Made by a program: the position numbers and the translations under genes
In this document: one piece after another, positions 9,421-44,127 of the stretch
Layout of the letters: the number at the start of each line of letters is the position of its first letter
How positions within the stretch are numbered: the stretch's first letter is position 1
Notes under the pieces: model-generated
What the model saw: the letters and a program-made list of their open reading frames with translations, nothing else
Database searches by the model: none
Told to the model about the DNA's origin: nothing
Assembly: GCA_943355005.1 (NCBI GenBank)
Contig: CALRDV010000009.1
Location: forward strand, 1-52,306
Source: Patescibacteria group bacterium
Lineage (GTDB): Bacteria; Patescibacteriota; Microgenomatia; UBA1400; MFAQ01
Direction: 5' to 3'
DNA: 52,306 nt

Positions 9421-9448
9421 TACACCCCGCGTGAGCGGGGTGTTTTTA
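9421..9448 (+). terminator. Rho-independent terminator after pncB (left mirrored copy)
   Basis: Stem CACCCCGC / GCGGGGTG, loop GTGA, then TTTTTAT. Its 24-nt core is the exact reverse complement of the terminator at 9784-9807. Confidence 0.9.
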
Positions 9449-9499: not shown

Positions 9500-9538
9500 C
9501 ATGTCTGAAAGAAAAATTGAAAATCTATGGAGGTTGTT

Positions 9539-9781
9539 ATGGACAACGGAATGAAAGATCGTGTGGCACAAGCACTGCCAATGTTTAAGGGAAAATTAAA
9601 AAGTGTGATAAAAGGCGAGGCAGAGGTCCTTCTTACTGAACTGGGATTTTATGTTTCACCTTCTCGTTTGGAAGAATTCGCCACTGTGATGGCTGAAGAA
9701 CTAAGGATTTCGGAAGTAATCGAAAAAGTCGAATTTCGAAAGGCTGAGGGCCACAACCCGGATAGGTTTGTAATTAGTTAG
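9539..9781 (+). CDS. Small acidic protein of unknown function
   Basis: An 80-aa soluble, mostly helical, charged protein with no transmembrane segment and no family I recognise. I start it at ATG 9539 because GGAGG (9529-9533) lies 5 nt upstream; an ATG at 9527 in the same frame would put the Shine-Dalgarno inside the coding region. The full-consensus promoter, strong ribosome site and own terminator predict high expression of a stand-alone gene. The two flanking terminators are mirror copies of each other. Function unknown. Confidence 0.75.
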   Translation: MDNGMKDRVAQALPMFKGKLKSVIKGEAEVLLTELGFYVSPSRLEEFATVMAEELRISEVIEKVEFRKAEGHNPDRFVIS

Positions 9782-9783
9782 AC

Positions 9784-9813
9784 AAAACACCCCGCTCACG
9801 CGGGGTGCTTTTA
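9784..9813. terminator. Bidirectional terminator (right mirrored copy)
   Basis: Stem CACCCCGC (9788-9795) / GCGGGGTG (9800-9807), loop TCAC, then CTTTTAT on plus and GTGTTTTGTC on minus. It serves the small gene on plus and mgtC on minus. Confidence 0.88.
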
Positions 9814-15282: not shown

Positions 15283-15293
15283 TTCAACACCAC

Positions 15294-33225: not shown

Positions 33226-33299
33226 GGACTCTTAGCTCAGTTGGTTAGAGCGCCTCGTTTACATCGAGGAGGTCGCAGGTTCGATTCCTGCAGGGTCCA
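33226..33299 (+). tRNA. tRNA-Val (anticodon UAC)
   Basis: The cloverleaf is complete: acceptor GGACTCT / AGGGTCC, D arm with AGCTCAGTTGGTTAGAGC, anticodon stem CCTCG / CGAGG with loop TTTACAT (anticodon at 33260-33262), T arm GCAGG-TTCGATT-CCTGC, discriminator A. CCA is not encoded. A 26-nt copy of its 3' part recurs 145 bp downstream. Confidence 0.95.
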
Positions 33300-33308
33300 C
33301 AAAAGTCG
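33283..33308 (+). repeat. Direct repeat 1, Val locus (tRNA 3' part)
   Basis: 26 nt starting GATTCCTGCAGGG, from T-loop position 57 of tRNA-Val to 9 nt beyond its 3' end. An exact copy lies at 33428-33453. Confidence 0.9.
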
Positions 33309-33325
33309 TACCCTAGAGGTGCGAC
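33305..33325 (+). terminator. Hairpin following tRNA-Val
   Basis: GTCGTACC / GGTGCGAC with a 5-nt loop, followed by ATTTGTG; probably the tRNA terminator. Confidence 0.5.
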
Positions 33326-33345
33326 ATTTGTGTATCAAGACCCAA

Positions 33346-33434
33346 AGGAATCGAGTGACGGAAGCAAGCTCGTAACGATCTTGCTGAGTCGGGTTCGAGA
33401 AAATTTTTAGCAGAAAATTATTCGAGAGATTCCT
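33346..33434 (+). other. tRNA-associated structured element, Val copy
   Basis: A closing stem AGGAATC (33346-33352) pairs with GATTCCT (33428-33434), which belongs to the duplicated T-loop/T-stem segment of tRNA-Val. Inside lies the 38-nt conserved core: GAC-GGA, a hairpin AGCAAG / CTTGCT around CGTAACG (33363-33385), then GA-GTC-GGGT. A second, AT-rich hairpin follows. The Leu and Gln copies have the same order and the same core spacing. Confidence 0.75.
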
Positions 33435-33453
33435 GCAGGGTCCACAAAAGTCG
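33428..33453 (+). repeat. Direct repeat 2, Val locus (displaced tRNA 3' part)
   Basis: An exact 26-nt copy of 33283-33308, 145 bp downstream; no tRNA 5' half precedes it. The next gene's stop codon begins 4 nt later. Confidence 0.9.
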
Positions 33454-35472: not shown

Positions 35473-35551
35473 GACTGTTCAAATCCTCCTATAAATGAAA
35501 AATCGTACCACAAGGGCACGAGTTTTCCATTTGTGGGCGGGGAGGGATTTG
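35473..35551 (-). repeat. Direct repeat, Leu locus, distal copy (79 bp)
   Basis: An exact 79-bp copy of 35620-35698. It covers tRNA-Leu(CAG) from T-loop position 56/57 to the 3' end, the terminator hairpin, and the first bases of the structured element up to its GTC triplet, where it stops. This looks like the remnant of a second, truncated unit. Confidence 0.9.
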
Positions 35552-35634
35552 CCTTCAGTAAATCTCTTTTGAGATTTCTTCAGGACCCGTCTCACCAGGT
35601 TCGTTACGAAACTGGTTCCGACTGTTCAAATCCT
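35545..35634 (-). other. tRNA-associated structured element, Leu copy
   Basis: In tRNA orientation, AGGATTTG pairs with the displaced CAAATCC of the T-loop region to close the element. The core is GTC-GGA, hairpin ACCAG / CTGGT around TTTCGTAACGAAC (35594-35616), GA-GAC-GGGT, followed by a second hairpin AAATCTC / GAGATTT. Element length 90 nt, against 89 at Val and 80 at Gln. Confidence 0.75.
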
Positions 35635-35698
35635 CCTATAAATGAAAAATCGTACCACAAGGGCACGAGTTTTCCATTTGTGGGCGGGGAGGGATTTG
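35620..35698 (-). repeat. Direct repeat, Leu locus, copy joined to the intact tRNA
   Basis: 79 bp identical to 35473-35551 at an offset of 147 bp. It includes a hairpin plus T run (CGTGCC / GGTACG then ATTTTTC on the complement) that probably terminates tRNA-Leu. Confidence 0.9.
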
Positions 35699-35761
35699 AA
35701 CCCTCATGAGTTGCCTCGCAGCGTTCTGAACACTGTGCGTCTACCATTTCGCCACCCGCCC
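35681..35761 (-). tRNA. tRNA-Leu (anticodon CAG)
   Basis: Class II tRNA: acceptor GGGCGGG / CCCGCCC, anticodon stem CAGTG / CGCTG with loop TTCAGAA, long variable arm, T arm GAGGG-TTCAAAT-CCCTC. CCA is not encoded. Its 3' part is duplicated downstream. Confidence 0.94.
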
Positions 35762-43890: not shown

Positions 43891-43917
43891 CCGACGAATG
43901 CAAACGTCGGTTTTTTT
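43891..43917. terminator. Rho-independent terminator
   Basis: CCGACG / CGTCGG with an 8-nt loop, then TTTTTTT. The displaced tRNA-Gln fragment begins at the last T. Confidence 0.88.
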
Positions 43918-43935
43918 GTTGCCGAGCTAGGACTC
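43917..43935 (-). repeat. Displaced tRNA-Gln 3' fragment (19 bp)
   Basis: Exact copy of 44054-44072, from T-loop position 57 to 2 nt beyond the discriminator, 137 bp away from the intact gene. Confidence 0.88.
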
Positions 43936-44008
43936 CCTCGAGTAGCTTCGCTCTCTCGGACCTGTCTCGCTGGGTTCGTCACGAAACCAGCTCCGACTTT
44001 CGAGTCCT
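43929..44008 (-). other. tRNA-associated structured element, Gln copy
   Basis: In tRNA orientation, AGGACTC pairs with the displaced GAGTCCT to close the element (80 nt). The core is GTC-GGA, hairpin GCTGG / CCAGC around TTTCGTGACGAAC (43969-43991), then GA-GAC-AGGT, and a second hairpin CGAG...AGC-GAA-GCT...CTCG. It matches the Leu core at 30 of 38 positions without gaps. Confidence 0.75.
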
Positions 44009-44023
44009 AACTGATTTAAACAT

Positions 44024-44046: not shown

Positions 44047-44055
44047 ATTTCAATG

Positions 44056-44127
44056 TTGCCGAGCTAGGACTCGAACCTAGAATACCCTCCTTCAAAGGGA
44101 GGTGTCCTACCATTAGACGACTCGGCA
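44056..44127 (-). tRNA. tRNA-Gln (anticodon UUG)
   Basis: Acceptor TGCCGAG / CTCGGCA, anticodon loop CTTTGAA in a CCTCC-type stem, T arm CTAGG-TTCGAGT-CCTAG, discriminator A. CCA is not encoded. A 19-nt copy of its 3' part lies 137 bp downstream. Confidence 0.94.

Follow-up and report, generated by a model that had tools for sequence, protein, structure and literature searches.

Cassette-like units with folded, target-matched ends behind tRNA genes of Candidatus Collierbacteria suggest a relative of integrons

Why should the 3' ends of three different tRNA genes recur some 140 bp away from the genes to which they belong, each starting at nearly the same point of the T loop? This question is raised by a 52,306-nucleotide stretch of DNA from a Patescibacteria group bacterium (contig CALRDV010000009.1 of assembly GCA_943355005.1), which we analyzed as a whole and refer to as the window. 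The organism belongs to the group Candidatus Collierbacteria, and its genome is designated G000 below. Six tRNA genes are present in the window; a unit stands behind three of them (Val, Leu-CAG and Gln) and is absent at Leu-GAG, Gly and Phe. The direct repeat that marks the unit comprises 26 bp at Val (33283-33308 and 33428-33453; offset 145), 79 bp at Leu-CAG (35620-35698 and 35473-35551; offset 147) and 19 bp at Gln (44054-44072 and 43917-43935; offset 137), exactly the lengths and offsets given in a preliminary description of this DNA, in which site-specific insertion had been proposed as their cause. By our own arithmetic, an exact 26-bp direct repeat is expected by chance about 3e-7 times in 52 kb. 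The first base of the displaced copies corresponds to T-loop position 57 at Val and Gln and to position 56 at Leu, and the common starting point claimed in the preliminary description therefore holds in the window; it also extends to the family, where the displaced copy begins at position 56 or 57 in 45 of the 60 tRNA-linked elements in which its start can be placed.

The units of the window are built in the same order (Table 1): the tRNA gene is followed by a terminator-like hairpin, a guide, a core made up of the stems P2 and P3, a variable hairpin (P4) and the displaced 3' half of the tRNA, which P4 directly abuts. The core has the consensus GNCGGA, then a hairpin with TCGTRACGA, then GAGNC. 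Each guide is the reverse complement of the T loop and the 3' strand of the T stem of its own tRNA (Val, AGGAATCGAG; Leu, GGAGGATTTGAAC; Gln, TTAGGACTCGAA). Since the 79-bp repeat at Leu-CAG spans a terminator and a guide as well, a second unit begins there, whose core has been lost. The target-matched guide, the conserved core and this second unit start were absent from the preliminary description. The window also contains a perfect 24-nt inverted pair (9423-9446 and 9784-9807) around an 84-aa ORF (9527-9781), with each arm of the pair forming a GC-rich hairpin (CACCCCGCGTGAGCGGGGTG), and a dispersed repeat around TGTCATTCCCGACCTGATCGGGAATC that is present in four copies (at 15285, 18838, 48715 and 50382).

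Table 1. Parts of the three units in the window and positions of second-class cores
Feature	Position	Strand	Basis or remark
tRNA-Val(TAC), regenerated target	33226-33300	+	ARAGORN, Rfam; 56/57 junction between 33282 and 33283
Val 3' half, first copy (start of the inserted unit)	33283-33308	+	26-bp direct repeat
Terminator-like hairpin, Val unit	33301-33329	+	Sequence
Val guide	33346-33355	+	10 bp with intact T arm, 7 bp with displaced copy
Val core (P2, P3) and P4 hairpin	33356-33427	+	Model R1 match, 67.6 bits; covariation
Displaced Val 3' end	33428-33453	+	Direct repeat
tRNA-Leu(CAG), regenerated target	35680-35761	-	ARAGORN, Rfam
Terminator-like hairpin, Leu unit	35641-35679	-	Sequence
Leu guide	35624-35636	-	10 bp with Leu T arm
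Leu core and P4	35552-35623	-	Model R1 match, 80.1 bits
Displaced Leu copy with second terminator and guide (start of the core-less second unit)	35473-35551	-	79-bp repeat
tRNA-Gln(TTG), regenerated target	44055-44127	-	ARAGORN, Rfam
Gln guide	43999-44010	-	Up to 14 nt with T arm, 11 nt with displaced copy; pairing runs slightly past the coordinates
Gln core and P4	43936-43998	-	Model R1 match, 68.2 bits
Displaced Gln 3' end	43917-43935	-	19-bp direct repeat
Second-class core loci	G000 C2:139840 (L104), G000 C7:33302 (L109), G008 C30:86918 (L146), G005 C26:31691 (L167)		

A pattern search detected a fourth copy behind tRNA-Cys in G000 and copies in seven of the eight other genomes of the genus. 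We built a covariance model (R1) on the core alone and left out the guides, since these come in two lengths and were misaligned by MAFFT. Among the 16 family genomes searched (most of the genomes compared are draft MAGs), G000 contains 24 copies, eleven relatives contain between 2 and 19 (the latter in G008), and four others have none; G007, which is 99% complete, carries only 2 copies, and G014 carries 12 whereas its congener G009 carries none. In the tRNA-linked copies, the core starts about 53-71 nt past the end of the tRNA. Tight linkage was seen to tRNAs for Cys, Leu, Arg, Asp, Tyr, Ser, His, Thr, Gln, Val, Glu, Trp, Lys, Gly, Pro and Ala, and the targets comprise at least 15 amino-acid classes of tRNA and, in addition, tmRNA. 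No core turned up outside the family in 374 sampled genomes of the class or in 380 of the phylum. A pattern scan of 84,980 species (257 billion bases) returned about 15 scattered matches outside Collierbacteria, a number that equals the chance expectation by our own arithmetic, and the viral contigs scanned with the pattern gave no match. In Rfam searches with the gathering thresholds and with relaxed ones, tRNA alone exceeded the cut-off, the remainder being weak chance matches, and none of its models represents the core. No earlier description of these elements was found in the literature searched, which did not extend to subscription papers.

In most tRNA-linked copies, the guide is complementary to the intact T arm over 9-15 bp across the junction, and to the displaced copy typically over 6-11 bp from the junction onward. 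The stems of the core covary: P2 occurs in all four Watson-Crick types (GGC/GCC, 29; GCC/GGC, 28; GTC/GAC, 21; GAC/GTC, 15) and P3 is paired in 464 of 485 cells, while the internal loop GGA/GA is constant in 89 of 99 cores. Structured RNA usually reveals itself by G-U pairs that outnumber A-C combinations. This is the case for the tRNA stems of the same genomes (88 G-U versus 9 A-C) and for the 70 terminator-like hairpins of the same elements that were measured (90 versus 13), but not for the core stems P2 and P3, with 7 G-T versus 9 A-C (Fisher p 5e-5 against the tRNA stems and 3e-4 against the terminators). By this measure, selection on the terminators looks like that on RNA, and selection on the core like that on DNA. 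The pattern of substitutions points to a core fold that is maintained as DNA, with the caution that template switching at imperfect palindromes could also perfect such stems.

The cores are not partitioned according to their targets. Near-identical cores stand behind different tRNAs with different guides, the nearest neighbor of a core lies on the same tRNA in only 9 of 69 cases, and one core is identical, together with its guide, in two genera. A second class of core matches lacks an upstream tRNA (TGCCGGA...GAGGCGGG) and possesses a long left hairpin. Its members have the reverse orientation. They neighbor tRNA-Arg(CCG) or sit where an apparent 5S rRNA gene, recognized by eye, has its 3' end; one is situated behind an apparent rplO gene. 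These cores, too, are flanked by copies of the end of their target. As a separate observation, the displaced tRNA copies of several genomes are interrupted, a few bases in, by GC-rich palindromes such as CTGCCTGCCGGCAGGCAGG (examples are G008 C25:80957, G003 C21:814 and G008 C15:34023).

Comparison of the same loci among relatives revealed both empty and occupied sites. At the Lys-Glu locus, the two tRNA genes are a few bases apart in G002 and G007, and are separated by a unit and a displaced Lys copy in G001, G004 and G006. The Leu-CAG locus is empty in G004 and occupied in G002, with the common flank meeting the end of the displaced copy, and the Val locus is empty in G005 and G006 and occupied in G008. 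Orthologous tRNA genes of the same genus thus exist with and without a unit and their flanks join where the displaced copy ends, which supports the proposal of site-specific insertion; according to the preliminary description, units at identical places in all relatives and a complete lack of empty sites would instead have favored a fixed role. The sites also undergo turnover. The core at the Cys locus is of a different subtype in G000 and G002. In G003, a Leu-type 3' end with its Leu flank is found behind a Val element, and in G008 a Val-type 3' end is found behind a Leu element. Both mismatched ends are broken at the junction, an arrangement that suggests recombination between sites.

Units occur in tandem behind the tRNAs for Ser-GCT, Asp and Lys, and several of them carry cargo of 0.6-4.6 kb, with genes in both orientations. 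The unit behind tRNA-Asp in G000 comprises a promoter-like sequence, a Shine-Dalgarno sequence, a 151-aa ORF, a terminator and the folded end; likewise, the second unit behind tRNA-Asp in G002 contains a single 124-aa ORF with a promoter-like sequence and a Shine-Dalgarno sequence. The second unit behind tRNA-His in G008 (1.2 kb) carries a gene for a Na/Ca exchanger in reverse orientation. Larger units were found in G004, one of about 4.6 kb behind His and an array unit of about 2.1 kb with a Y1 transposase gene behind Gln. Contig 57 of G012 has a folded end at either contig end, and radical-SAM and peptidase-like genes lie in between. The preliminary description had envisaged a unit of only about 140 bp that is devoid of an integrase; the lack of an integrase is borne out in the units examined, but the size is not general, since units of this type can hold genes and reach about 4.6 kb. 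Close to where cargo units end, and also close to Y1-transposase-like genes, we repeatedly found a short conserved peptide with the consensus VLDDEILEPVCAQI.RLR (L151, 769-822 and 3706-3774; L025, 5410-5508, 6231-6290 and 7077-7169; L137, 1462-1548; L227; L228).

Which enzyme might move these units? The preliminary description had suggested looking for a tyrosine recombinase gene flanked by the same core, but no recombinase gene in such a position was found. Two types of Xer-like tyrosine recombinases (in G000 at C3:132321 and C2:79008) are encoded across the 16 family genomes, including the non-carriers (in G004, 77% complete, only one was found); both score below the curated XerC and XerD cut-offs and far below that for the integron integrase (TIGR02249), and IntI itself was not found. 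With no core-flanked tyrosine recombinase and Xer-like genes in every family genome, mobilization in trans, as had been proposed, is likely. The Xer-like genes do not adjoin cores, and both types are also present in element-free relatives, so their co-occurrence with the elements lends no positive support. None of the other enzymes searched for tracks the carriers: reverse transcriptase (RVT_1) is missing from most carriers, Y1_Tnp is missing from the carriers G002, G012, G013 and G014 (2-13 copies) and present in the non-carriers G009, G010, G011 and G015, serine recombinase is missing from G008 despite its 19 copies, and the DEDD recombinase of IS110 was found in none of the 16 genomes. Among the families tested, only the Xer-like tyrosine recombinases occur in every carrier; this elimination favors a tyrosine recombinase that would act in trans. 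A conventional island at tRNA-Asp of G001 (L256, C1:663500-671000) encodes a 333-aa tyrosine integrase, and two T-loop units stand behind its displaced copy. Its integrase looked like an autonomous partner of the units, but that copy begins on the anticodon side and not in the T loop, and we regard the island as a separate entity.

The island in G001 illustrates a different explanation of the duplicated tRNA ends, namely that ordinary tyrosine-integrase islands have been worn down to att remnants. Crossover would then occur in the double-stranded T loop, the core would be DNA bound by accessory proteins, and its inverted repeats would be incidental or perfected by template switching. Sites of tyrosine recombinases are indeed often flanked by inverted repeats, and the displaced fragment follows the logic of tRNA islands (PMC4383910). 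However, such remnants would hardly account for a guide that covaries with each tRNA or for a three-part fold with a constant internal loop; moreover, the G001 island crosses over elsewhere in the tRNA, and none of the units examined contains an integrase. We therefore consider this explanation unlikely. An element of the tRNA 3' trailer with a processing or regulatory role, fixed in its place, would fit the constant distance to the tRNA and the conservation, between genomes, of some pairs of elements that share a tRNA (Lys, 97%; Ser-GGA, 97%; Glu-CTC, 95%). It is already contradicted by the empty sites and the patchy occupancy, and equally by the uneven copy numbers and the two core subtypes at the Cys locus, and we give it the least credence of all the explanations weighed here.

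IS200/IS605 and REP-RAYT elements also combine a guide with a neighboring hairpin and have small non-autonomous copies. Single-strand transposition by an HUH (Y1) enzyme, as in IS200/IS605 or REP elements, is accordingly worth weighing; the transposase would then recognize guide and hairpin. A hairpin with a guide on its 5' side and a cleavage site on its 3' side recalls the right ends of IS200/IS605, and one unit of the Gln array (G004 C40) does contain a Y1 transposase. Yet carriers are not tracked by this enzyme, and regenerated target halves of 17 or more nt that restore a gene are not a known feature of IS200/IS605, which makes this route quite improbable. The guide complements the intact tRNA over the junction, as P1/P10 would, and the core is conserved and structured; one could thus imagine mobility at the RNA level, through a small ribozyme that splices or reverse-splices and uses its guide to align the two flanks of the junction, much as a group I intron uses its internal guide. 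A group I or other ribozyme was set aside on account of the G-U test, in which the terminators of the elements but not their cores show the bias of RNA, and of the reverse transcriptase that most carriers lack. The missing Rfam ribozyme match, the cargo genes in both orientations and the position of the terminator before the core also speak against it, and we rate it slightly below HUH transposition.

We favor, at a probability of about 0.6, a reading in which the units represent integrative cassettes that are not autonomous, act in the manner of the attC cassettes of integrons and use the T arms of tRNA genes as insertion sites; the data suggest a hitherto undescribed relative of integrons. 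Site-specific DNA recombination would insert the cassette between T-loop positions 56 and 57 of a tRNA or tmRNA gene. The cassette starts with its own copy of the 3' half of the target, by which the tRNA is restored, followed by cargo or by nothing, and ends with the terminator-like hairpin and the folded attachment site (guide, P2/P3, P4). Within a single DNA strand, the guide would pair with the sequence just past the crossover, so that the resulting duplex has the sequence of the target, and a tyrosine recombinase encoded elsewhere would join this folded end to the double-stranded T arm. The anatomy of the units, the match of the guides, the covariation, the empty and occupied sites, the tandem units, the cargo and the turnover are observed; the single-stranded intermediate, the enzyme and the excision of circles are what we infer, and neither an excised circle nor an excision event was observed. 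More tentatively, and at somewhat less than even odds, integration may be target-adaptable, with one recombinase serving at least 15 tRNA classes and tmRNA and the folded-DNA guide determining which T arm is entered.

Integron attC sites comprise an R''/R' pair, an L''/L' pair and an extra base on the R''-L'' arm, and recombine at the L'-R' boundary (PMC2727003). The units resemble them in having the folded site at the 3' end of the cassette, in the topology (R''-L''-loop-L'-R', where the inner edge of R' is the crossover point), and in the individual parts: the outer pair R''/R' corresponds to guide and copy, the inner stem L''/L' to P2/P3, the extra base is on the R''-L'' arm, and the top is variable. 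Tandem arrays, one-gene units and a structure more conserved than its sequence are also shared with integron cassettes. Unlike in integrons, however, insertion takes place at the T arms of many tRNAs and not at a single attI site next to intI, the outer box matches each tRNA instead of being a common heptanucleotide R box, an additional hairpin (P4) borders the crossover from the 3' side, the 3' half of the target is carried along, and promoter-like sequences are present in the two cassettes inspected.

Genomic islands in tRNA and tmRNA genes, as catalogued by Islander, lie between a regenerated target and a displaced 3' fragment, and the T loop is one of their crossover subsites (PMC4383910). 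These traits recur here, along with empty sites in relatives. The units differ from such islands by the lack of an integrase, a minimum size of about 140 bp, tandem cassette arrays and one family serving many tRNA types, and the att site of an ordinary integrase has no folded end that bears a target-matched guide. In the integrase-less phage CTXphi, a forked hairpin of one strand forms the duplex attachment site on which the host Xer enzymes act (PMC3089051). The units would likewise have a folded single-strand attachment site and use host Xer enzymes, but they target tRNA T arms instead of dif, and they are cellular cassettes without phage genes. They also stand apart from the bridge-RNA elements of the IS110 family, given that no DEDD recombinase was found in the 16 genomes. 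The system works like a mixture of the integron, CTXphi and tRNA-island systems and does not coincide with the full definition of any of them.

If our reading is true, gene capture by folded DNA sites extends beyond integrons and exists in the Candidate Phyla Radiation, in which gene mobility is little known; there, tRNA genes would offer many points of entry in parallel. That guide and target pair suggests a site-specific recombination that can be retargeted by changing about ten bases. With this system, one could also ask directly if Xer-type enzymes, lacking the special helix of the integron integrase, can recombine single-stranded folded sites. Should integration indeed be target-adaptable, the tRNA genes of these bacteria would represent integron platforms scattered over a reduced genome.
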